From Chloroflexota bacterium (GTDB lineage: Bacteria > Chloroflexota > Anaerolineae > Promineifilales > Promineifilaceae): 9,722 bases of DNA. Under the pieces are notes generated by a model. The model ran no database searches. It was not told where the DNA came from and saw nothing but the letters and a program-made list of their open reading frames with translations. Positions 1 through 9,722 of the stretch are shown piece by piece (the stretch's first letter is position 1; each line of letters opens with the position of its first letter). The DNA lies in NCBI GenBank assembly GCA_008501785.1, contig QQUD01000798.1:1-9722 (forward strand), given 5' to 3'. The position numbers and the translations under genes are program-made.

Positions 1-396
1 TCCAGCCTGCCGTCCCCAATTATCCCGTACAAAACCATACATCCCGATACCGGCCAATAAAATTGCCAGCACAAAAACAGCTTTAATACCTGCCACCGCA
101 TCAAATTGGGGCAGCAATTCAAAACCAAGCCCTACGTAATACGCCAACGGCGCATAAAAATTAAAAATAGGGTAGCCATATCCGTGATAAAAGTTCGGTG
201 CCCACCGTGGATACCACTCCCCACCCCGCACCAACAGACTCAACTCATGCAGCCTAAAAATATGCAGTTCCGCATCCGTTCCCTCTGGCAAGCTGGCATG
301 ACTAATAAAAGGCCAGACAGCTATCATACATATCAAGATAATCACCAAAAAACCTGGATCAACCAAAGAACGGAATTTTCGCATCTGCTTCATCAT
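1..396 (-). CDS. Membrane protein, 6-pyruvoyl-tetrahydropterin synthase-related (PF10131-like), partial: C-terminus outside window
   Basis: The frame stays open for 132 codons from ATG at 396-394 to the left edge, so only the N-terminus is visible. Residues about 13-32 form one hydrophobic segment. An extracytoplasmic-looking loop follows with TDAELHIFRLHEL (about 43-55), EWYPRWAPNFYHGYGYP (about 64-80) and FNFYAPLAYYVGLGF. Residues about 106-120 (GIKAVFVLAILLAGIG) look like a further membrane segment. The first-loop pattern of an acidic residue plus H, then 'YPRW.P.F..GYGYP.FNFY.PL.YY', is what I know from the PF10131 membrane family common in Chloroflexota, a GT-C-like fold of unproven activity. 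No Shine-Dalgarno is visible before 396. A second ATG follows immediately and a third lies at 384-382, so the start is uncertain. The gene begins directly after an intrinsic terminator, so it may depend on readthrough or on a promoter hidden in the hairpin. Family assignment is from memory of motifs. Confidence 0.75.
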   Translation of the reverse strand, partial: MMKQMRKFRSLVDPGFLVIILICMIAVWPFISHASLPEGTDAELHIFRLHELSLLVRGGEWYPRWAPNFYHGYGYPIFNFYAPLAYYVGLGFELLPQFDAVAGIKAVFVLAILLAGIGMYGFVRDNWGRQAG

Positions 397-441
397 AAAA
401 ACAAAACGTGAAACACACCATAACGAATGCGTTTCACGTTT
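397..441 (-). terminator. Rho-independent terminator after the secreted beta-sandwich gene
   Basis: Perfect 11-bp inverted repeat: GTTTCACGTTT at 431-441 and AAACGTGAAAC at 404-414, with a 16-nt loop. On the minus strand the stem is followed by TTTTGTTTTT (406-397), so the orientation fits termination of the gene whose stop is at 478-480, 37 bp upstream. On the plus strand the stem is followed by TATATC, not a T-run. The T-tract runs straight into the ATG at 396 of the next gene, which is unusually tight. Confidence 0.8.
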
Positions 442-477
442 ATATCAATTCTAATAAATGATTACGGAAATATTATG

Positions 478-1914
478 TCAATTATCTTGCGGAAGTAGTG
501 CCTCCATATCAAAGTCACCACTTTCCAGGAAACCCCAATCTTCATAATCCGTCGTCGAATACCATATCTGGTTATTTGGCGTAGTAATCAAGTAATCATC
601 AAACTGTGCTTGAAAATCATCCGTCTCATACGTAGCGGAAAAGAGTCCAAAAAGCGTTCGATTCCCATACGGCCGAGGCTCGTTGATTGTTCTCAGGTGT
701 TTGTCGTTGACATAAATTATAATCTGCGTATCGGTCCGTTCAATGCGCCATGTATTCCATGATTTATTACCATCCCCTTTATTGTATTCAGGGGGAAAAT
801 CTTTCCAATCAAACAAGGGCGCCTGACTGCCCTTCTTATCATTGAGAATGGTATATCTTGAACGCTTGCTGCCTTCCCAATCGATCCACAACATGTAGTA
901 ATTGCCGAGATCTGAGCCATCAGGATTCGGATTATCTTCCCCATCAAAAATGATTCCGTATGAAGACAACCAACCACCTTCTTTAGAGAATCTGGCCTCA
1001 ACCTCAATCGTATAATCACCATTGGGCAAGAATACCGGCGGACCAGATTTAACGTCGGTACGATCATCACAAATGTCCATTTGATACAAAGTGCCGATAT
1101 AATCTAAACGGAAGCAATCATCCTTATCATTTCGATTATCTTTTCTGCGCCAGCCGCTTGTATTGTCACTGAAATCATCAAAATAAAAGTAAGCTGGTGT
1201 TGGCGTTAGTGTAGGCGTCGGGTCTAGTTTTAACATCGGCAGATAAGTTAATTCTCCATCCGTTGCTTCAAGCAGCATATCGTCAATAAATGCCCCGACA
1301 TCTTCGCTGCTACCATTACTGGTAAAATAGTAACGAATCCACACCTGCGCTTCACCTGCGTAAGCATTCAAATCAACCGTATTTGATTGCCAACCACTGC
1401 TGCCACTGTAAGTCGCCAAAACAGTGCTGTAGTCGCTATTATCGGTCGAGATTAAAACCTGCAATAAATCATTAGATGCTTCAGTTTCAAGCCAATAATC
1501 GTAGGAAAGTCGAGCAAATTCATAGCTGCTCAAATCAACAGGACCGTATGTCATAGCAGACATAGCATTGCTCGGATAATTATCCGTTCCTGCTGCTAAT
1601 GCACTACCTTGTGTACCTCCACCGGCTACCCAGGCACTACTTATGCCCTCGCTGTAGGTATAAGTGTTGGTTGCCCAGTAATATTCGCCATTTGTGTCAG
1701 CATCAAGGTCTTCAAGACTCCAAGACCCAGAAAATCCAGTTTCAAAATCTTCTTCGACAACTGCTGTCCAACTGGCGGGAGCAGCGTCAGCTTCAGATGA
1801 AGCTTCGTTTGTCAAAGCCATCAAAAAGATTACTGCTATTAAAATAGAAGTAATACTTAAACCAATAAAAACCATGTTAGTACGAATGTTTCGTCGAATT
1901 GTATTTCCACGCAT
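478..1914 (-). CDS. Secreted or membrane-anchored protein with two beta-sandwich (lectin-like) domains
   Basis: The protein has 478 residues from ATG at 1914-1912. I prefer this ATG because AAGAGGTG sits 6 nt upstream. The longer frame would begin at GTG 1923, which lies inside that Shine-Dalgarno. A basic N-terminus (MRGNTIRRNIR) and a hydrophobic stretch (about 13-34) form a signal peptide or anchor, with an alanine-rich ADAAPA after it. Domain 1 (about 50-218) begins EEDFETGFSGSW and ends GAFIDDMLLEA, the layout of MAM-like and peptidase-associated jelly-roll domains. A short linker PTPTLTPTPA (about 232-241) follows YLPML. Domain 2 (about 243-445) starts YFDDFSDNTSGW and ends FQAQFDDYLIT, with WRIERTDTQIIIYVND inside, resembling concanavalin A-like/DUF1080-type folds. 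Two cysteines (C267, C282) could pair. The C-terminal tail is acidic. I see no catalytic motif, so carbohydrate binding or a structural surface role is only inferred. The gene has its own promoter and terminator, making it a single-gene unit. Confidence 0.8.
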   Translation of the reverse strand: MRGNTIRRNIRTNMVFIGLSITSILIAVIFLMALTNEASSEADAAPASWTAVVEEDFETGFSGSWSLEDLDADTNGEYYWATNTYTYSEGISSAWVAGGGTQGSALAAGTDNYPSNAMSAMTYGPVDLSSYEFARLSYDYWLETEASNDLLQVLISTDNSDYSTVLATYSGSSGWQSNTVDLNAYAGEAQVWIRYYFTSNGSSEDVGAFIDDMLLEATDGELTYLPMLKLDPTPTLTPTPAYFYFDDFSDNTSGWRRKDNRNDKDDCFRLDYIGTLYQMDICDDRTDVKSGPPVFLPNGDYTIEVEARFSKEGGWLSSYGIIFDGEDNPNPDGSDLGNYYMLWIDWEGSKRSRYTILNDKKGSQAPLFDWKDFPPEYNKGDGNKSWNTWRIERTDTQIIIYVNDKHLRTINEPRPYGNRTLFGLFSATYETDDFQAQFDDYLITTPNNQIWYSTTDYEDWGFLESGDFDMEALLPQDN

Positions 1915-1920
1915 AAATTT

Positions 1921-1928
1921 CACCTCTT
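1921..1928 (-). promoter_or_regulatory. Ribosome binding site deciding the start at 1914
   Basis: The minus strand reads AAGAGGTG, then AAATTT, then ATG. The 6-nt spacing fits the ATG at 1914. The in-frame GTG at 1923-1921 is part of this site and is therefore an unlikely start. Confidence 0.75.
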
Positions 1929-1945
1929 GAAAAATACCGATGCGA

Positions 1946-1974
1946 ATTCTATCGTTCGCCTATTACCCTGTCAA
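1946..1974 (-). promoter_or_regulatory. Sigma70-type promoter for the secreted beta-sandwich gene
   Basis: The minus strand carries TTGACA (1974-1969), a 17-bp spacer and TAGAAT (1951-1946), that is, 6/6 and 5/6 matches to the housekeeping consensus at the optimal spacing. Transcription would start near 1939, giving a leader of about 25 nt that contains the Shine-Dalgarno. It lies in the 101-bp gap after the stop codon of the upstream glycosyltransferase gene, so the secreted protein can be expressed independently of the glycosyltransferase genes. Confidence 0.75.
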
Positions 1975-2015
1975 GAAAGCGGTGTTTGTGCTGTCTTTCT
2001 CAGTGAGAAAAATGA

Positions 2016-3905
2016 TTATGGTAACAAAACGGCCGTTATCGGCACCACATCATTCTCCATCCGCTCTCCTTTCAAAAATGCAGGCAAACGCTGTACATCT
2101 GGCAACGAGTACATTCCCACCATTAATTGATAACGGCTCTCACCCAGATTATTGGGCAACGAAATTTGAAATGTGTCCGGCACAAAGATTCCAGGACTCC
2201 ATATTGAAGTAGGCAACCGCCCTGCTGCCGGAGGTCCATCATGCTGCCCGACAAGGTCTCCATGTTCATTAACCAGATGTACAAAAATTTGATAATCATT
2301 GGGGATTGACTCAACGCCTTCCCAATAAAAGGTTCCGACTACCGTCAATTCAGATTCTGTTGCCTGTACAGGTTCCAATGAATAGCCCCGTAATTGAATG
2401 CCCGGTTGAAAAGCAACATCGAGTGGATACGTGATGGGAGACGGCCGTTTCACCATCTCATACATCGCAATTTGATCAAAAGCCGCAAACTGACTTGCTT
2501 CATTTTCTGCCCACTGGTAAAGCATGGGCAGCTTACGAAAATGTTTATCTTCAAACAGCAAATATGAAACATCATACTCCTGCTGTGCAAATAGAACATC
2601 TGTGGGCGTAAGCAAACCGGTAGAAATGCGTTTGTTCGATGTATCGGTCAAAGTGGGCGGCACCAGATGACCTGTCGTAAAAAGTAAAAATGGGCTGTTG
2701 CTAATCACAAATGTTTGTTGAGGAAACGTTGCAGCGGCTAACATCTGTGCCTGCTTGTGCTGCGGCTGCCATTCTTGCCACTCACGCACTGCTGCAACGC
2801 CCCAACCAACAGCAACAACAGCCCACAAGAGAGGCAAACGGGCAACAAATTGGGAGCGTCTTCCTGCGCCCCTCGTAGCTGACCACTGCTGCAACGCCAC
2901 ACCAACACCCCCAGCAGCGATTAAAACTAAAGGGTAAAACGCAAAAAAGATGTAGTGCTCCCACATTGGCTGCAAGCGATTTAACACAATCAATGTCGTG
3001 GCGTACCAGATGAACGTTAACCCTACCCAACCATGCAATTTTCTTTCACGCAGCAGGGTGAGCAGCCCCATCAAGGCAGCTATCAGCAGTGGCCAATGTG
3101 CAATATGGGCTTCGAGCAGAAAACGGCCGTTTCGCGTCGCCCGCTCTTGCAGCACATCACCCAGCGGGGTATTGTTAAACGCCACCACCCATTCCCAAAA
3201 ACCAACCCTATCAACCAACAACAGCCAGCTACCCGTTACGACAAGCACGCCCACTGTAAAAATCAGACCAATTTTAAAAATATTTTGCCAATTTTTTTTG
3301 GTGTTGGTTGGCGGAATATTTGCTGATTTTGAAAAAATCAGAACCAGTCCCACCGGCAGTGCCATAAACAGCAGCAGTGGATGCAATCCCAAACCAATGG
3401 CAAAGCACACGGCCGTTAACCCCACCCATCTCCACGTTTGTCGCATACGAAACTGCGTTGCACATACCAATGCTGCCAACATAAATGTCATCGCCGGCAA
3501 ATCGTTCATCACCACCGCTGATCGCACCAACGATTCAGGAATCAGCAGGTAAATGGCAATTGCCGCTACATCTGCCCAGCGTCCCCACCATTGGCGAGCC
3601 AATATCCCCAGCAAAATGAGGCCCACTGTTGTCAACAGCAGCATCGACACATTGGCCACAGCAACTGTTTCGCCACCCAGCCAAAACGCCAGTTGCAGCC
3701 ACCAGATAATCAGCGGTGGTTTATTGAAAACGGTTTCAGCATAGAGGGGAAAGCCACGACTGGTTAAAACGGCCGTTTGCAGCAGCACCCCTTCATCATA
3801 ATTCCACGCATACGCATCAAAATGGCTGACTGAGATAATCAAATATGCTGCCAGCAGCCCAATCCAAATGGACTGATACAGCCCCCTCTGACGCAAACGA
3901 TTCAT
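2016..3905 (-). CDS. GT39-like dolichyl/polyprenyl-phosphate-dependent glycosyltransferase with C-terminal beta-sandwich module
   Basis: The 629-aa protein has many membrane segments (first about 12-30) followed by a soluble tail. The first outer loop carries YDEG (D37, E38), the acidic pair typical of the GT39/PMT catalytic site, then FNKPP (60-64), a usual GT39 signature. A second loop has R129...D136 (RSAVVMNDLPAM), matching the family's second acidic position. The enzyme would move a sugar from a lipid-phosphate donor to an acceptor outside the membrane; sugar and acceptor are unknown. Residues about 495-629 form the extra domain, with IFVHLV, VGQHDGPP, PTSIWSPG and YQLMVGMYSLPDVQRLP, homologous to the tails of the two upstream genes. 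The ATG overlaps the upstream stop as TAATG, and GGTGAG (3913-3908) precedes it, which suggests translational coupling. No terminator is evident after its TAA. Three cores of the AACGGCCGTT palindrome are perfect (2028, 3122, 3768) and two are near-matches (2441, 3409). Confidence 0.85.
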   Translation of the reverse strand: MNRLRQRGLYQSIWIGLLAAYLIISVSHFDAYAWNYDEGVLLQTAVLTSRGFPLYAETVFNKPPLIIWWLQLAFWLGGETVAVANVSMLLLTTVGLILLGILARQWWGRWADVAAIAIYLLIPESLVRSAVVMNDLPAMTFMLAALVCATQFRMRQTWRWVGLTAVCFAIGLGLHPLLLFMALPVGLVLIFSKSANIPPTNTKKNWQNIFKIGLIFTVGVLVVTGSWLLLVDRVGFWEWVVAFNNTPLGDVLQERATRNGRFLLEAHIAHWPLLIAALMGLLTLLRERKLHGWVGLTFIWYATTLIVLNRLQPMWEHYIFFAFYPLVLIAAGGVGVALQQWSATRGAGRRSQFVARLPLLWAVVAVGWGVAAVREWQEWQPQHKQAQMLAAATFPQQTFVISNSPFLLFTTGHLVPPTLTDTSNKRISTGLLTPTDVLFAQQEYDVSYLLFEDKHFRKLPMLYQWAENEASQFAAFDQIAMYEMVKRPSPITYPLDVAFQPGIQLRGYSLEPVQATESELTVVGTFYWEGVESIPNDYQIFVHLVNEHGDLVGQHDGPPAAGRLPTSIWSPGIFVPDTFQISLPNNLGESRYQLMVGMYSLPDVQRLPAFLKGERMENDVVPITAVLLP

Positions 3906-5845
3906 TACTCACCAACCTGGATACCGTGGTTCAACCAGGTGCGATTATCTGGTACAGGTTCACCCACTGCAGATTGTAGCACCAGCCGATCCCCCGTTAT
4001 CCAATCGTACATTCCGACGGCGAGGTGATATTCCCCAGCCGGTGCGTCATCCGGAATTTTGATGGAAAATTGATCGTCAATCACTTGACCGGGCCACCAG
4101 CGCGTCGGTGGGTACACGCCTTCATACGGTACTTTGTCATGCTGTCCGACAATACTATTATCCGGTCCGACTAAATGGGTAAAGACACTCCAATAGTTAT
4201 CGGTGGGTCCAGTGGCTTTCCAATAAAGGGTAAATTTAACTTTATCACCCGGTTGCAACTGTTCTTTCGCAAAAGTGTAACCGGATAGTGTCACATTTTC
4301 GCCAAATTGGGTGCCATCTTCGTAAGTGATCGTGTAAGTGTCTTCGGCAAGAAACGGCCGTTCCCTGTCCCGTATCCAAATCGCCAACTCCTGTTCATCT
4401 CGTCGCGTGCGACTGTGCAAGTCAAAATTGGCTTCCAAAAAGCGATGGAAGCGGGGATAATCTCGCAAATATGCCATATGATCCCCAATGATCAGTGACT
4501 CGTTAATCATCACAATGCGTGTATTGGTAGCCACAATCTCATCAACCAGCATCTCGCCCACGATTTGACCGCTGGTAATCGCCCCATTGGACAAAGCCGC
4601 ACCAGAATACGTCGTTGGTCGGCCGCTGTAAAAGGCAAGACCAATATCATCAGTTAATACAAATTCACCCGGCTCTGTATTGTCTACAATCAGATCAACA
4701 AGCATTTGTGTCTGATTATCAACTTTTTGTACCCTGATAATATTTTCCTGCAAAAAGGGAATCGCAATGGCAGCAAAAGCCACCACGCCGACAATACGCC
4801 CTGGTCGGCGAAAACGGCCGTTTATAAACTCAGCAATAATCCATGCTGTCAACAGCGCAATCGATGGCAGCAAGAACATGAAATGCCGTCGCCCCAAGTC
4901 CCGTGACAACAACAAAAACGCCAAGATCACTGGAATTTGCCACGCCCAACGCAGCCGTGTATCACCATTCACCGAACCCCAAACGGCCGATATCAATGTC
5001 AGCCCAACCAGCACAGGATAAAAGCTAAAATATTCGTAATAAACGGCAAACTGCCGCAACAATACACGTGTCGATTCCTGGTCGCTGCCTTGTGCCACAT
5101 GATGCCCAACTACCAAATCAAAAAAGTTTGGCGACAGCCAGCTAAACACACCAGCAAACGCACCAATCACAAGCAATGTTGGCACACCCAGCCACAGACC
5201 ATCTATGATCATTTGAGAAAACGGCCGTTTCTTTCGCCATGCGTCCCAAATCACCCACAGCCCGATGCCGCCCATAGGCAAAAGGCCAAATAATTTCACC
5301 ATCGTCGCCAGCCCGAAACAGATCCCTGCCCAGGCCAAATTGCGCCGCCGCACACCGTCCTTTGGCCAGGTAGCCACCACGACTCCCAACGTTACCAGCA
5401 GTACAAACAGCGGCTCATTGCGATAGATACGCATTTCTTTGAATACTTCCGCATGAAGCAAGTAGAGCACCATCGCCAGCCAGCCAGCCATTAGGCTGTG
5501 ATGTCTTCGGCCTGCAAAAAAGAGGATTAGACTGCTGCCAAATGTTTGCAGCACAATAAAAGCACGCATAAACCAGAGTGAAGGTCCTGCCAGCAGCATA
5601 AACAACGTGCCCGTGTACAAAAAGACCGGCAGCTGCGGCGTCAGGAAATCACGATACGGCATCTCTCCCAGTGTCATGCGCCACATTTGGTAGAGATACT
5701 CCCCTTCATCATCATGAATGCGCCAGCCGGTCAGGTTATACAAATAGAGACCCAACAGTACCACCACAATCGCAGCAGTTACCCACGGCCACCACTTATT
5801 ATCAACTTTTGAAGATTGGTTCTTGTTTACAATTTGCTCTGTCAT
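3905..5845 (-). CDS. GT39-like glycosyltransferase with C-terminal beta-sandwich module
   Basis: The 646-aa protein has a short polar cytoplasmic-looking start (MTEQIVNKNQSSKVDNK) and a first membrane segment at about 20-38. The loop motif WRIHDDEGEYLY (D45, D46, E47) and then YRDFLTPQLPVFLY match the first outer loop of GT39 enzymes. E144 in RIYRNEPLF fits the second acidic position. Hydrophobic segments continue to about residue 370, and a soluble region of about 130 residues follows before the terminal module. That module (about 503-646) has FTHLVGPDNSIVGQHD, PPTRWWPGQVIDD and YHLAVGMYDWITGDRL, alignable by eye with the neighbours. The start lacks a close Shine-Dalgarno; AAAGGT is 17 nt away, and an in-frame stop lies 15 bp upstream, so ATG 5845 is the best available start. 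The gap to the upstream gene is 44 bp and shows no promoter, so co-transcription is likely. Donor and acceptor cannot be told. Confidence 0.85.
   Translation of the reverse strand: MTEQIVNKNQSSKVDNKWWPWVTAAIVVVLLGLYLYNLTGWRIHDDEGEYLYQMWRMTLGEMPYRDFLTPQLPVFLYTGTLFMLLAGPSLWFMRAFIVLQTFGSSLILFFAGRRHHSLMAGWLAMVLYLLHAEVFKEMRIYRNEPLFVLLVTLGVVVATWPKDGVRRRNLAWAGICFGLATMVKLFGLLPMGGIGLWVIWDAWRKKRPFSQMIIDGLWLGVPTLLVIGAFAGVFSWLSPNFFDLVVGHHVAQGSDQESTRVLLRQFAVYYEYFSFYPVLVGLTLISAVWGSVNGDTRLRWAWQIPVILAFLLLSRDLGRRHFMFLLPSIALLTAWIIAEFINGRFRRPGRIVGVVAFAAIAIPFLQENIIRVQKVDNQTQMLVDLIVDNTEPGEFVLTDDIGLAFYSGRPTTYSGAALSNGAITSGQIVGEMLVDEIVATNTRIVMINESLIIGDHMAYLRDYPRFHRFLEANFDLHSRTRRDEQELAIWIRDRERPFLAEDTYTITYEDGTQFGENVTLSGYTFAKEQLQPGDKVKFTLYWKATGPTDNYWSVFTHLVGPDNSIVGQHDKVPYEGVYPPTRWWPGQVIDDQFSIKIPDDAPAGEYHLAVGMYDWITGDRLVLQSAVGEPVPDNRTWLNHGIQVGE
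3908..3913 (-). promoter_or_regulatory. Ribosome binding site at the TAATG overlap
   Basis: The minus strand reads GGTGAG, two bases, then ATG at 3905-3903. The stop TAA of the upstream gene (3907-3905) shares one base with this ATG. The site therefore lies inside the upstream coding region, the usual arrangement for re-initiation by the same ribosome. Confidence 0.5.
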
Positions 5846-5889
5846 AATCAGACAACGAGTTTACCTTTGTTAGCCTGGATTGCAACTGC

Positions 5890-8226
5890 TCACTCAATCA
5901 AAATTTCACCCAGCAGAATAGTATCATCGCCGCCCGTTTGAATGGGCAAACGTACTAAAGTTTCCAGGTTATACATGCCTACAAGAAGAGTCACAGGACC
6001 TAATGACATGCCAGGTGGAATGTCAATCAAATGCGTATCGGGGATGATCTGCCCAGGTTCCCACCGCGTAGTTGGATTCATATTGCACTCTGGAGCACCG
6101 TCATGTTGGGCAACCAACTCGCCCCCCGCAACCAGATGGGTAAATACCTGATGCGGTTCGGTGAATGGCAGCAGCGCTTCCCAAAACAGTGTCACAGCCA
6201 CCTGACCGCCCGGAACCGCATTTTCCACATTTACATCGTAACCAAGTAACTTCACCTGTCCATTCCCCAAAATCGCATCTACTGGCACAATGCCTTCTGG
6301 TTGGGGAGCAGCGGCTTCTTCAGGAGTTAGCCAATGTTTGGTTCTGTGAGCGTCAATGGAGTTTACGGCCGTTTCCTCTCTTCCATAAATTTGCATGGTA
6401 GAACGGCCGTTTACCACCACCTCATGCTGCAAAAACATGCCATCCAGCCACGCCGCATCATACGGAACCGTATCCTGCACATTATTTGCCACAATAAACG
6501 TTTCAAAATCAGGACAATGCGTGCGATTTGCTTGCCCCATATAAATATTCGTGATTTCCTCTTCCTCATTGCTGGCATACGGCAGCGCCAATGGCAATTC
6601 GCCCACCGCTCGCCATCCTGCCTGATATGGGAAACCAAACAAACCATACAGCGGCGGCTCATCCCAGGTTGTTGGGAAAAAGGCGGGTTTGTTTTCAGCC
6701 CAAGTACGCTGCCGTTCAGGGCTTGTGTCCACAAACATCAAACACACATAAACGGCCGAAACCACGATAAACCCAACAAACAATCCAACCAACAAACGCT
6801 GCATCACCGGCTGCGACACCTTTTGCCACAACCAAACGCCCCCCACCGCCGCCAACATCGCTGCGCCAGGAAAAATCGTATACACGTGTGTCCGGGCATC
6901 ATCCACAATCACAGTGTAAAAGAGCAAGGGTACGAGAAAGGTAAGGAGGGCAGAAATACGGCCGTTTTTCTGCCACCACAGCACAACAAGCCCAACACCA
7001 ACCAGCAAAATCAAACCCAAAATATAATAGAGGCTGTTGTAAAATGTAGCCATCTGCCACACTTCAGTCCCACTCCAGCGCACCGTTGCCCCAGCCTGCT
7101 CCTGCCCCAATCGATCCCCAAGCAAATAACTTTGCGTCTTAGCAAAATTGGGATGCAGCACATATGGCACATAAAATAGCGTCAGCAATCCAAATCCAAT
7201 CGCGCCAGACAGCAGCCACTCCCACCACCGTGCTATCTGCAAACGAGGCCACACCAACCACACAATTGCTGGAGCAACCAGCACGGCGTCGTAATGGGAG
7301 AGGAGACCGCCTGCGAGGAAAACGGCCGTTAAACCCAACGCCCAACCATCCCCATCCTCACGATACCGGTCTGCGTGTAGCAATGCCAACAGCCCCCACA
7401 GCATCACAAACGATTGGTACTGAATAATGCGCCCAAACGCAATGCTAAACCCATTTACTGCCAGCAGCACACCAGCCACCAGCGCCACCTTGTCACCAAA
7501 CCAGCGCCGCGCCAGTGCCACCATTACCAGCACAGCCAGCACATTCCCCCACAAAAACGGCAGCCGCGCCCAAAATTCTGAAATCGCTCCCGTGCTGCCC
7601 CATGCCACCATCGGCAGCACAATTTCCACCGGTCCCTTCTGATGCAAAAACAACTCCACATCATCCCCAGTCAAGGCCGTCGCCGCCCGCATCAAAATAA
7701 TCCCCTCATCCCCTTGCAGCTCCTTATACCCCATATTCGGCAGCCGCAGCAAAATTGCAAGCAGAATGAGCAATAAGATCGGAATCAAAGATTTTGCAGA
7801 TATCGCAGATTCACTTCCCTTACTGGTTGTGCCGCTGCTCTTTTCCTCCCCATCCGTCTTCTTTCCCATTCGTATCAAAAAAAACGAAGCAAAAACAGGC
7901 AAAACCACAACAAAAACACCCCATCCCAACAACAACAAACGGGGCACAGGTCCAGGCAAATAATGAATAAGCAGCCCACCAATTACATGCAGCAGCAGCA
8001 CCCACCCCGCCGCCGTCAACCAACCCGAAAATCGTAGGGCAAAACACTGTTTTGTCCAGGCAAGATGACATCTCACCCTACCAAAGATTACAAGTTCCCA
8101 TGTGTAAATGGGCAGCAGCCAAAAGAGGAAAACGGCCGTTACCTGCTGCACATCTCCCACCGACACCCACCAAATCATCAGCGCAGCAACCAGCGACACA
8201 CCCAACCAAAAAGCAACTCGCCTCAC
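5890..8226 (-). CDS. GT39-like glycosyltransferase with extra N-terminal membrane domain and C-terminal beta-sandwich module
   Basis: The 778-aa protein is longer than its neighbours because about 145 residues precede the GT39 part. Residues 1-120 hold about four hydrophobic segments, and 120-145 is a charged, serine-rich linker (GKKTDGEEKSSGTTSKGSES). The glycosyltransferase core then starts at about 147 with a membrane segment, ELQGDEGIILMRA (D173, E174), FLHQKGPVEI (HQKGP, 195-199) and ARLPFLWGN (220-228). At the second acidic position it has R266...Q271 (GRIIQYQSF) rather than D/E. A soluble region follows the last membrane segment (about 480-500). The terminal module (about 657-778) contains VFTHLV, VAQHDGAP, NPTTRWEPGQIIPD and LLVGMYNLETLVRLP. 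Translation starts at GTG 8226, directly after an in-frame TGA, with GAGGTG 5 nt upstream. Likely first gene of a three-gene transcript. It holds several copies of the palindrome (perfect at 6402, 7321, 8131). Confidence 0.85.
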   Translation of the reverse strand: MRRVAFWLGVSLVAALMIWWVSVGDVQQVTAVFLFWLLPIYTWELVIFGRVRCHLAWTKQCFALRFSGWLTAAGWVLLLHVIGGLLIHYLPGPVPRLLLLGWGVFVVVLPVFASFFLIRMGKKTDGEEKSSGTTSKGSESAISAKSLIPILLLILLAILLRLPNMGYKELQGDEGIILMRAATALTGDDVELFLHQKGPVEIVLPMVAWGSTGAISEFWARLPFLWGNVLAVLVMVALARRWFGDKVALVAGVLLAVNGFSIAFGRIIQYQSFVMLWGLLALLHADRYREDGDGWALGLTAVFLAGGLLSHYDAVLVAPAIVWLVWPRLQIARWWEWLLSGAIGFGLLTLFYVPYVLHPNFAKTQSYLLGDRLGQEQAGATVRWSGTEVWQMATFYNSLYYILGLILLVGVGLVVLWWQKNGRISALLTFLVPLLFYTVIVDDARTHVYTIFPGAAMLAAVGGVWLWQKVSQPVMQRLLVGLFVGFIVVSAVYVCLMFVDTSPERQRTWAENKPAFFPTTWDEPPLYGLFGFPYQAGWRAVGELPLALPYASNEEEEITNIYMGQANRTHCPDFETFIVANNVQDTVPYDAAWLDGMFLQHEVVVNGRSTMQIYGREETAVNSIDAHRTKHWLTPEEAAAPQPEGIVPVDAILGNGQVKLLGYDVNVENAVPGGQVAVTLFWEALLPFTEPHQVFTHLVAGGELVAQHDGAPECNMNPTTRWEPGQIIPDTHLIDIPPGMSLGPVTLLVGMYNLETLVRLPIQTGGDDTILLGEILIE

Positions 8227-8231
8227 TCAAT

Positions 8232-8237
8232 CACCTC
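8232..8237 (-). promoter_or_regulatory. Ribosome binding site for the GTG start at 8226
   Basis: The minus strand reads GAGGTG, then ATTGA, then GTG. The 5-nt spacing is ideal. The triplet before the GTG is TGA in the same frame, so no longer start exists. Confidence 0.65.
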
Positions 8238-8255
8238 AACATACCCGACCCAACC

Positions 8256-8335
8256 CGCAGCGACAAAAGCAGCACGAGTAACAGCCATTTTTTAGATCAT
8301 GCTTGAAATCGTTCATCAAAATTTTATTCGCTGCG
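8256..8335. repeat. 8-bp inverted repeat in the intergenic gap
   Basis: CGCAGCGA at 8256-8263 is mirrored by TCGCTGCG at 8328-8335, with A-rich and T-rich flanks that partly extend the match. The 64-bp separation is too long for a terminator. The arms bracket the candidate promoter, so an operator is conceivable, but an 8-bp pair can arise by chance. Confidence 0.35.
8291..8319 (-). promoter_or_regulatory. Weak candidate promoter for the three-gene glycosyltransferase unit
   Basis: The minus strand has TTGATG (8319-8314), a 17-bp spacer and TCTAAA (8296-8291), each matching 4 of 6 consensus bases. It lies in the 136-bp gap (8227-8362), the longest gene-free stretch between the glycosyltransferase genes, and would give a leader of about 58 nt before GTG 8226. 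In such AT-rich sequence this match could be chance. I see no U-tailed hairpin in the gap, so readthrough from the upstream gene is also possible. Confidence 0.3.
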
Positions 8336-8362
8336 ATTAGCTGGCAAATTACGATAATAGTC

Positions 8363-9722
8363 TCACTCCACGCGATAAATCAAAATCGAATACCCAATCC
8401 GTGCATCCGGCTCTTGCTGCCGAAACCACGAATAAACCGTTGAATGCGGCAGCGGCAGTTCCATCAAATTACTCACGCTAATCGCATACACACCCGGTTC
8501 CGGCTCAGACACATTAAAGGGCGGTACAGTCCATTGCGAATAAAATGCGGGCAACGGAGACCCCGGCATGGGATCATACAAAATGTCATAATAATCTGGT
8601 ATCGCAGACCCAAACCAGCCCAATTTCACTCGCTCAACACCTTCATCTGCCATCCAATCCTGCAGGCGCAGCAAATCCTGACCCCAATCCACATTGCTAT
8701 CCAGCAAAACCTGGTATCCATTTTCAGGACCACCAGCCGCCTGATTAAAATAGCTTAAATAATGAGGGTGGATCCACACCGTCGTCAACAATAAGGCCAC
8801 AAAGGCCCCGCTAACACCCATCATCATGATGCGACGCTGTTTGGCATCCCTTCCCCACGCCACCAATCCAGCCAAAATCAGATAAACAAACGGCAGCGTC
8901 GGCAACAAATGACGGTAGCCAATATTCAAATTACTCATCATGCTGGTGGCAAAATACAACAGCGGCACCAGCAGCACAAACAGCACCCGCTGACGCGTCT
9001 CACGTCGCCACAACAACAATCCAATTGCCAGCACCAGCCCAATCAATGTCACCACTGGCGTTTTTACGGCAAAGGTAATTGGGAAATATTGAATAAACCC
9101 TTCGAAAGAAAAGTCACCAAACAAAAATGCCATCCGTCCACTGCTGGACCAAAACAATATCTTCTCAATCCCTCGCCAAAACGTCGGCATCGGTCCAGAC
9201 ACTAGATTCAATCCCAACAACCAATCAGCCTGAAATGCAAACCGCCCCCACTCAAACCCAAAAATTCCCCACAACACCACAATCGAAAACAAACCAGCCG
9301 ACAAATACATTGCCAACCGATTTTTCATCCCAGAGAGTACAGAGGACGCAGAGAGAAAAGAAAAAAATCTGTGTTTATCTGTGTTTATCTGCGTCCAATT
9401 CTCTTCATAAAGAGGCAAAATCGCCATCACACCCCAAATCGGCACAAACGCCAACGCCGACAGCTTGCTGCCAAAGGCCAACCCCATGCCCACACTAGCC
9501 AACAGCCAGGTACGCCAAGACGGCCGTTTCCACATCCGCCACAACAAAAAAGTCGCTAGAAATATGAACAGCGTCCCACCAAGATCAGTCGTCACATAAC
9601 GGCCGTTTGCCAACACCTTCGGGTCAAACAAAATGAAAAGGAACGTGAGGTGATGGGTAAACGGCCGCTTCCACAACTGACCCGCCCACTGAAACCCAAC
9701 CAGCCCCAACCCCAACGTCAAA
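8363..9722 (-). CDS. GT39-family phospholipid-carrier-dependent glycosyltransferase, partial: N-terminus outside window
   Basis: The frame is open to the right edge; the first visible codon is TTG, an internal leucine and not a start. Numbering from it, FDPKVLANGRYVTTDL (32-47) holds the family's conserved R and D (R41, D46). FLFGDFSFEGFIQYFP...FAVKTP (199-222), NIGYRHLLP (266-274), YLSYFNQAAGGP (321-332) and DSNVDWGQDL (341-350) are signature blocks of a GT39 subgroup I recognise from many environmental bacteria. The first catalytic acidic loop lies beyond the window. About ten hydrophobic segments are visible up to about 315; the tail of about 135 residues is soluble and lacks the beta-sandwich module of its three neighbours. 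Residues about 107-131 are polar and come from a repeat-like insertion. The stop is TGA at 8365-8363. Lipid-linked sugar transfer outside the membrane is inferred from the family; the substrate is unknown. Confidence 0.85.
   Translation of the reverse strand, partial: LTLGLGLVGFQWAGQLWKRPFTHHLTFLFILFDPKVLANGRYVTTDLGGTLFIFLATFLLWRMWKRPSWRTWLLASVGMGLAFGSKLSALAFVPIWGVMAILPLYEENWTQINTDKHRFFSFLSASSVLSGMKNRLAMYLSAGLFSIVVLWGIFGFEWGRFAFQADWLLGLNLVSGPMPTFWRGIEKILFWSSSGRMAFLFGDFSFEGFIQYFPITFAVKTPVVTLIGLVLAIGLLLWRRETRQRVLFVLLVPLLYFATSMMSNLNIGYRHLLPTLPFVYLILAGLVAWGRDAKQRRIMMMGVSGAFVALLLTTVWIHPHYLSYFNQAAGGPENGYQVLLDSNVDWGQDLLRLQDWMADEGVERVKLGWFGSAIPDYYDILYDPMPGSPLPAFYSQWTVPPFNVSEPEPGVYAISVSNLMELPLPHSTVYSWFRQQEPDARIGYSILIYRVE
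9331..9403. repeat. Short dispersed-repeat-like element read in frame through a glycosyltransferase gene
   Basis: The plus strand has a purine-rich arm, then an A-run, then a period-10 tract TCTGTGTTTA repeated twice (9368-9387), ending in TCTGCGTCC (9388-9396). GGACGCAGA at 9344-9352 is the exact reverse complement of TCTGCGTCC, so the ends form a 9-bp inverted repeat around 35 bp. On the coding strand it yields NWTQINTDKHRFFSF, a polar peptide between two membrane segments. From memory, similar 'ATCTGTGTTTATCTGTG' tracts and their translations recur in many unrelated bacterial genomes; I cannot verify this here. TTCAT occurs at 9324-9328 and 9404-9408, but the 80-bp spacing is not a multiple of three, which weakens it as a target duplication. 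Confidence 0.55.

Follow-up and report, generated by a model that had tools for sequence, protein, structure and literature searches.

A highly iterated palindrome of one Chloroflexota family, in the same class as cyanobacterial HIP1

The highly iterated palindrome HIP1 has the sequence GCGATCGC, has alternate highly iterated palindromes (HIPs) beside it in cyanobacteria, and has a function that is described as "a mystery" (Elhai, 2015; PMC4390886). DNA-uptake words are a second class of frequent word, with over-represented one-mismatch forms (Bakkali, 2007; PMC1939737), and restriction-modification (R-M) systems have short recognition sites, that of NotI being GCGGCCGC (PMC2614495). Here we analyse 9,722 nucleotides of DNA from a Chloroflexota bacterium (assembly GCA_008501785.1, contig QQUD01000798.1, positions 1 to 9,722; hereafter the window), in which the decameric palindrome AACGGCCGTT recurs, and with it the octamer ACGGCCGT and the core hexamer CGGCCG. 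Our data show that ACGGCCGT is a HIP of one Chloroflexota family and belongs to the same class as cyanobacterial HIP1. A sequence-only reading of the window knew of no description of the word in this phylum, and our search of the literature, which covered open-licence papers, likewise found none.

A recount of the window bears out the ten exact copies of AACGGCCGTT in 9.7 kb reported from the sequence alone, which are spread over four open reading frames (ORFs; three, three, three and one), and reduces the eight one-mismatch copies claimed there to seven (Table 1). The 17 sites with at most one mismatch compare with 0.34 expected from dinucleotide shuffles, none of 200 of which reached 17. Altogether the window holds 15 ACGGCCGT among 20 CGGCCG, and the use of all three reading frames is evident from the codon phases of these octamers (six, five and four copies).

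Genome-wide counts were made in relatives of the window and not in its own genome, and they confirm that the word is frequent far beyond it. Of 17 genomes reached via protein relatives, 16 contain between 0 and 29 AACGGCCGTT; the exception is the metagenome-assembled genome (MAG) G004 (JACSSI01, isolate CH7), which has 5,060 exact copies in its 6.2 Mb, where a reversed control occurs 7 times. Across 52 genomes of the family of G004, which from one protein name and lineage is probably the Promineifilaceae, the count of AACGGCCGTT runs from 4 to 5,060. The maintained and shared unit is better described as the octamer ACGGCCGT, with a lineage-specific outer preference that is A..T in G004. The highest count in the family is that of G021, with 15,176 ACGGCCGT in 7.5 Mb against 183 for the reversed word. 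A class of 28 genomes, here called A-type, carries 437–2,102 ACGGCCGT per Mb, with the top density in G044, and observed-to-expected ratios (O/E) of 27–74 under an order-2 Markov model in the eight A-type genomes sampled. For one of the 28, G028, the assignment to the A-type comes from its 437 copies per Mb and from 6 kb of sampled sequence in which three of six CGGCCG lie in the octamer; similar densities are found in G025 (421 per Mb) and G061 (514 per Mb), both of the hexamer type described below. Among 396 genomes drawn from the taxonomic class, more than 1,000 copies of ACGGCCGT are found solely in the family of G004, and the highest count elsewhere is 430.

The shuffled-codon control proposed with the sequence-only reading was run, and codon usage alone fails to explain the copies. 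Shuffling synonymous codons within genes gave a mean of 0.40 exact AACGGCCGTT and a maximum of 3, so that none of 1000 shuffles reached the 10 observed, and the same shuffle in the five window ORFs gave a mean of 1.07 ACGGCCGT and a maximum of 5 against 15 observed (0 of 1000 reaching 15). In the relatives, synonymous shuffles gave 21.8 ACGGCCGT against 195 observed in G004 and 35 against 299 in G020. All three codon phases are occupied across the genome samples, and the word is present in intergenic DNA too, at 0.5–1.7 ACGGCCGT per kb compared with 1.2–2.2 per kb in coding DNA (11 samples, split by simple ORF calls). The gaps between copies are compatible with random placement in four of five samples and over-dispersed in the fifth, G041 (coefficient of variation 1.40 versus 1.09 simulated, with a standard deviation of 0.09). 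Gaps of less than 50 bases were somewhat rarer than simulated in all five samples, and the gap analysis of these samples does not support selection for even spacing. We note that the G041 sample (L149–L154) includes motif-free stretches of up to 8.6 kb, where about 4.4 kb is expected at random; these are perhaps recently acquired DNA.

Comparison of orthologous genes, a check also put forward from the sequence alone, shows that individual sites are mostly kept exact, far above control words. The alignments were high-scoring segment pairs of at least 65% identity and at least 150 bases, with pairs that are not independent and rpoB regions over-sampled, and they exclude G024, G025, G028, G035, G039, G057, G061 and G065 as partner or query. 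At 70–75% identity a ACGGCCGT site is exact in a second motif-rich genome in 1,146 of 1,789 cases (64%), at 75–80% in 564 of 751, and at 80–85% in 272 of 301; the corresponding values for control 8-mers containing six G/C are 11%, 15% and 26%. In motif-poor relatives at 70–75% identity the octamer is exact in 39 of 658 cases (6%; control 12%). Within rpoB and fusA, G045 and G042 agree in all eight comparisons, made for four rpoB sites in either direction (control words 9%), and among the listed pairs conservation is lowest between G026 and G045, at two of five (control 7%). The copy at 5220..5229 is the sole window octamer inside a block alignable to the motif-rich G004, and it is exact there, in a block of 69% nucleotide identity. 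At 65–75% identity, conservation of the hexamer is 67% when it lies within the octamer, 32% when it has one A/T flank and 19% when it has none; for the seven other all-GC palindromes it is 0–15%.

The forms that deviate from the word do so mainly at its outer pair. One-mismatch partners between motif-rich genomes deviate there in 132 of 173 cases. One-off variants, counted with G026 excluded, number 223 in the inner six positions versus 288 expected, beside 1,347 exact copies, when six A-type sets are summed; inner one-offs fall below expectation in nine of ten family sample sets and reach 1.04 times expectation in the tenth (G035), and outer-pair one-offs exceed expectation in seven of the ten, including the six A-type sets. 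As a yardstick, 50 kb of the Synechocystis plasmid pSYSM holds 32 exact copies of HIP1, with 13 inner one-offs versus 6.2 expected and 18 outer ones versus 1.9, in what is a small sample; unlike HIP1 there, the Chloroflexota word shows no excess of inner one-offs.

Several relatives use an alternate word. The top palindromic 8-mer is TCGGCCGA in G039 (98 in 60 kb) and G024 (85 in 60 kb), GCGGCCGC in G057 (69 in 40 kb) and TGCCGGCA in G035 (55 in 47 kb). The outer pair thus varies among A..T, T..A and G..C on a CGGCCG core, and the whole word changed once, in G035; the alternates have six to eight G/C of eight positions, and ACGGCCGT has six. In hexamer-type genomes CGGCCG is dense with no fixed outer pair, as in G025 (106 in 20 kb, and 21,019 in the whole genome of 4.1 Mb), G061 and G065; G062 and G063 were assigned to this type from octamer counts and whole-genome CGGCCG counts, and G064 from its octamer count and its likeness to G062, G063 and G065. 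The share of CGGCCG lying in ACGGCCGT is 54–85% in ten A-type genomes and 3–15% in five of the hexamer type, the whole-genome CGGCCG counts covering these ten, with G028 and other A-type genomes outside them. The search for alternates sampled 15 genomes, smaller pieces of 13 (including 3 kb of G058) and ten HIP-less genomes (G047, G048 and G060 at 5–8 kb), with G053 outside the samples. No such word was found in the samples of G046 (159 kb) or of G049, G050, G051, G052, G059 and G005 (11–24 kb each), some of which have mildly raised CGGCCG. In G035 (L121–L126), CGGCCG is depleted to 5 in 47 kb (O/E 0.16), with 447 CGGCCG against 7,315 GCCGGC in the whole genome of 4.0 Mb, and the two words TGCCGGCA and CGGCCG look mutually exclusive there.

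The word is also found in viral DNA. A pattern search of viral contigs for two AACGGCCGTT within 31 bases returned 24 stretches versus 14 for the reversed control. In pieces of nine of 21 distinct viral contigs ACGGCCGT reaches 1.7–3.7 per kb, densities that are biased upward because the pieces were found through two close copies; the rest have 0.2–1.5 per kb, and pieces found by the reversed control have at most 0.3. Seven of ten proteins from five dense viral pieces match PHROG families, with phage functions that include a tape-measure protein (L299) and head maturation proteases (L306, L290); the protein of L284 is FtsK-like with a weaker terminase match, and that of L283 is without a match. 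GCCGGC is nearly absent from the pieces L283, L299, L290 and L306 (0–2 per 13–17 kb), and the dense piece L284 has 22.

These observations place the word among the HIPs. It is a genome-wide over-represented palindromic 8-mer, its 437–2,102 copies per Mb lie within the range of the class (hundreds to ~2,700 per Mb), and its G/C share equals the class minimum of 75%. It occupies all frames independently of codon use, has alternates in relatives (G024, G039, G057 and G035) and deviates mainly at its outer pair. The class further calls for a word-specific methyltransferase in each genome with the word, for which a candidate in 29 of 31 fixed-flank genomes is described below. The HIP1-like interpretation offered from the sequence alone is therefore supported by thousands of copies in relatives, in all frames and between genes, and by orthologous sites that are mostly exact. 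HIP1 proper is excluded, the word being ACGGCCGT and not GCGATCGC, and its hosts being Chloroflexota MAGs and not cyanobacteria. As HIP1 is described by Elhai (2015; PMC4390886), the two have in common a GC-rich octameric palindrome on the order of 1000–2000 per Mb, flanks that extend the palindrome, the use of alternates by some relatives and deviations mainly at the outer pair; a link to methyltransferases is likely to be a further parallel. They differ in phylum and word, and most Chloroflexota alternates keep one core and change the outer pair; the candidate methyltransferase described below is associated with NotI and is not of the DmtC (CGATCG) or DmtA (GATC) type given for HIP1. The density in some viral contigs is a further feature of the Chloroflexota word, the one of the two for which it was looked at. 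A second HIP1-like system, in another phylum, makes the question of HIP1's function testable by comparisons, since one family offers alternates, HIP-less sisters, word-bearing phage-like contigs and a nameable candidate enzyme. Such comparisons would bear on the identity of the enzyme that marks the word, on whether mutated copies are restored through the mark and on the reason for which phages retain it. Counts of the word may, in addition, be of use in linking phages and sequence fragments to these uncultured bacteria.

We propose, and give an even chance of being right, that the family HIP is the recognition site of a NotI/EagI-type modification system whose mark guides the restoration of exact copies. 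A NotI/EagI-type system would recognise the octamer, and most genomes would retain no more of it than an orphan amino-methyltransferase; a site so modified would then guide a process such as strand-directed repair or the protection of modified DNA, and this process would restore or favour exact copies wherever they arise. EagI cuts CGGCCG, and the NotI site GCGGCCGC is identical to the alternate HIP of G057. In G030 a NotI-family nuclease gene (PF12183, 1.3e-52) directly precedes the gene of the candidate methyltransferase, and Pfam NotI matches also lie beside the candidate in G057 (5.5e-11) and, outside the family, in G203 and G135; tblastn adds a NotI-like nuclease beside it in G226 and G241. 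In contrast to the sites of an R-M system of this type, those of the Chloroflexota are over-represented and not avoided.

An orphan methyltransferase had been suggested from the sequence alone, and the suggestion has gained a concrete candidate linked to NotI-type systems, though one that tracks the word imperfectly. The 5-methylcytosine methyltransferase family PF00145 was rejected as the word's enzyme: it occurs in 24 of the 52 family genomes, unrelated to the word, and is absent from the motif-rich G018, G021, G022, G026, G027, G031, G034, G042–G045 and G054, among others. The classical PF01555 enzyme, in 48 of 52, was set aside too, as some motif-rich genomes match it just weakly or in split form; through the split matches the candidate amino-methyltransferase was recognised. 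This is a protein of ~660 residues with the motif order DPMMGGG ... DPPY, common to several motif-rich genomes poor in PF01555; against the NCBIfam DUF1156 family it scores 75.8 bits of 1000, far under the cut-off. A profile built from four candidate proteins exceeds 300 bits in 40 of the 52 family genomes. The candidate is present in 29 of 31 genomes with a fixed-flank CGGCCG word (missing in G054 and G055) and in none of six hexamer-type genomes (G025, G061–G065), a difference with a Fisher p of 1.2e-5, not corrected for kinship. Of two sister genomes, G024 has both the candidate and a fixed flank and G025 has neither.

The AlphaFold model of the candidate is of fairly high confidence, with a pLDDT of 85.2. 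Foldseek with this model gave no close match in the PDB but general methyltransferase domains, with TM-scores by query length of at most 0.15 among the matches listed, and single-sequence phmmer gave as its best PDB match a putative modification methylase, 2zie (E 0.0041, 48 residues). For the NotI-like nuclease, neither a single-sequence nor a profile search matched a PDB entry. Relatives of the candidate occur at 30 viral loci, mostly 19–34% identical, a few with short segments at 54–64%. The candidate tree (34 sequences) conflicts with the RpoB+FusA tree, and this conflict suggests that the gene may have moved by horizontal transfer. Its neighbours include NurA nuclease genes (G057, G044; L196, L200) and MoxR-type AAA ATPase genes (G041, G029; L189, L192).

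A number of observations weigh against the proposed modification system. The candidate occurs in 11 of 15 family genomes that lack a fixed-flank CGGCCG word (G005 in part, G046–G053, G059 and G060), so that the fixed-flank genomes do not differ significantly from these 15 (Fisher p 0.078, again without correction for kinship), and it was rejected as a clean marker of the word for this reason. Conversely, G054 and G055 have the word without the candidate, and the hexamer-type genomes, which also lack it, are among the densest in CGGCCG. The candidate's tree does not follow HIP type. Outside the family 23 genomes carry the candidate at 580 bits or more, and their median CGGCCG:GCCGGC ratio of 0.69 compares with 0.63 in 24 genomes without it (rank test p 0.41); the two sets of ratios overlap widely, and the idea that the candidate alone raises CGGCCG was therefore rejected. 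The upper tail is suggestive in the candidate's favour, with ratios above 1.2 in seven of the 23 and one of the 24 (p 0.023). A NotI-like nuclease is adjacent in just two of 30 family loci, with none seen in the examined flanks of the other 28, and in four of 19 loci outside the family, 15 of which were viewed on one side of the candidate alone. Finally, the restoring process is itself postulated.

A view with two factors, one for the hexamer and the candidate for the flank, fits both the hexamer-type genomes and the contrast of G024 with G025. It accommodates G054 and G055 only if these MAGs are incomplete, and it would require the other factor to be absent from the genomes that bear the enzyme without the word. 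In its most specific form, which we consider doubtful, a NotI-type methyltransferase without its nuclease would mark N-CGGCCG-N and a second factor would repair or protect DNA by this mark, so that sites would be restored in chromosome and phage alike, the outer pair would follow the specificity of the enzyme, and the bare hexamer would be left after loss of the enzyme, as in G025.

The alternative that best survives, possible if on the unlikely side, is that the octamer is the selected binding site of a dimeric host protein, serving chromosome organisation, replication, Chi-like recombination or end protection, with methylation incidental. The exact palindrome, the purifying-type conservation of single sites and the maintenance of the octamer rather than the hexamer are all consistent with such a site, and the viral contigs with 1.7–3.7 copies per kb suggest that the word benefits whatever DNA the cell contains. 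Binding of related words by dimeric regulators has a precedent: of four papers in which AACGGCCGTT occurs, one gives it within a predicted promoter site of a TetR-type regulator of Thermus (PMC6651687), though this is one site and not thousands. However, spacing that is near random, or over-dispersed as in G041, gives no sign of a required maximum gap, and the outer pair, and once the whole word, has switched, which a modification enzyme could accommodate more readily than a binding protein that is essential. No candidate binding protein turned up, in an analysis that made no search aimed at one.

We regard it as improbable that the word serves DNA uptake in competence, in the manner of the Pasteurellaceae and Neisseriaceae. 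Neisseriaceae uptake words have dialects, and the Chloroflexota word shares with those of Haemophilus and Neisseria a high density and lineage-specific dialects, here on a common core. This parallel, drawn from the sequence alone, is weakened by the exact palindromy of the word, by its density in some viral contigs and by the shortage of inner one-offs in nine of ten sets, although outer-pair ones are in excess in seven. An equally low probability attaches to the word being a functionless mutational by-product, in which methylation-directed mismatch repair ratchets sequence towards it, as in the model put forward for HIP1 (Elhai, 2015; PMC4390886). Near-random placement in four of five samples, the word in phage-like DNA and inner near-misses below expectation agree with such a ratchet. 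It would, however, have to be very efficient to account for conservation at 70% identity, and the GmeC rule of that model (methylated first C) favours G..C outer pairs and fits poorly because A..T and T..A are used too, an objection that falls if an inner C were the methylated base. Lastly, that codon usage, amino-acid bias or chance produces the word has a practically negligible probability, for although the phase encoding TAV is the most frequent in the ACGGCCGT samples, the synonymous shuffles and conservation in orthologous DNA refute it. The intergenic presence of the word also speaks against it, and so does G046, which lacks ACGGCCGT at all four rpoB positions where G021 has it even though the encoded residues are identical at three of them.

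The copies and genes of the window are collected in Table 1. All window ORFs except the one at 478..1923 have matches in the PMT/PMT_2 glycosyltransferase families, and the named relatives of the third ORF are Chloroflexota MAGs. Positions 1–2000 have no octamer and a GC content of 0.42–0.43, below that of the rest of the window.

Table 1. Copies of the word, lone core hexamers and ORFs in the window
Feature	Position	Strand	Basis
Exact AACGGCCGTT	2028..2037		sequence count
Exact AACGGCCGTT	3122..3131		sequence count
Exact AACGGCCGTT	3768..3777		sequence count
Exact AACGGCCGTT	4353..4362		sequence count
Exact AACGGCCGTT	4813..4822		sequence count
Exact AACGGCCGTT	5220..5229		sequence count
Exact AACGGCCGTT	6402..6411		sequence count
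Exact AACGGCCGTT	7321..7330		sequence count
Exact AACGGCCGTT	8131..8140		sequence count
Exact AACGGCCGTT	9598..9607		sequence count
One-mismatch copy GACGGCCGTT, octamer ACGGCCGT intact	2440..2449		
One-mismatch copy CACGGCCGTT, octamer intact	3408..3417		
One-mismatch copy AACGGCCGAT, octamer broken (outer T)	4982..4991		
One-mismatch copy TACGGCCGTT, octamer intact	6364..6373		
One-mismatch copy TACGGCCGTT, octamer intact	6957..6966		
One-mismatch copy GACGGCCGTT, octamer intact	9519..9528		
One-mismatch copy AACGGCCGCT, octamer broken (outer T)	9660..9669		
Core hexamer CGGCCG not within octamer	670..675		
Core hexamer CGGCCG not within octamer	4620..4625		
Core hexamer CGGCCG not within octamer	6753..6758		
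ORF with weak MAM and 3keto-disac_hyd matches (below cut-off), 0 octamers	478..1923	-	
PMT-like membrane glycosyltransferase ORF, 5 octamers	2016..3905	-	
PMT-like membrane glycosyltransferase ORF, 3 octamers	3905..5845	-	
PMT-like membrane glycosyltransferase ORF, 5 octamers	5890..8226	-	
PMT-like membrane glycosyltransferase ORF, 2 octamers; listed start one base from window end, may be cut	8363..9721	-	

Some further features of sequence composition were seen in the samples. The flanks of AACGGCCGTT in the G004 sample are G-rich at -2 and -3 (GG.AACGGCCGTT.CC), a pattern in which codon phase is not separated from binding preference. The 12-mers TCCGTATTCCGT/TCCGTGTTCCGT, TAATTGGGTAAT and ACAGATTTCACA are repeated 9–16 times in 100–140 kb (G030, L115–L119; G019, L108–L114; G046, L101–L107) and are possible signs of local repeat arrays. 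In eight A-type samples, the viral pieces and the window, all-GC palindromic hexamers other than CGGCCG are often scarce, above all GGGCCC (zero-order O/E 0–0.18 in the eight A-type samples), and CGGCCG exceeds expectation 5–7 fold in the same eight samples and 15–17 fold in G025 and G061.

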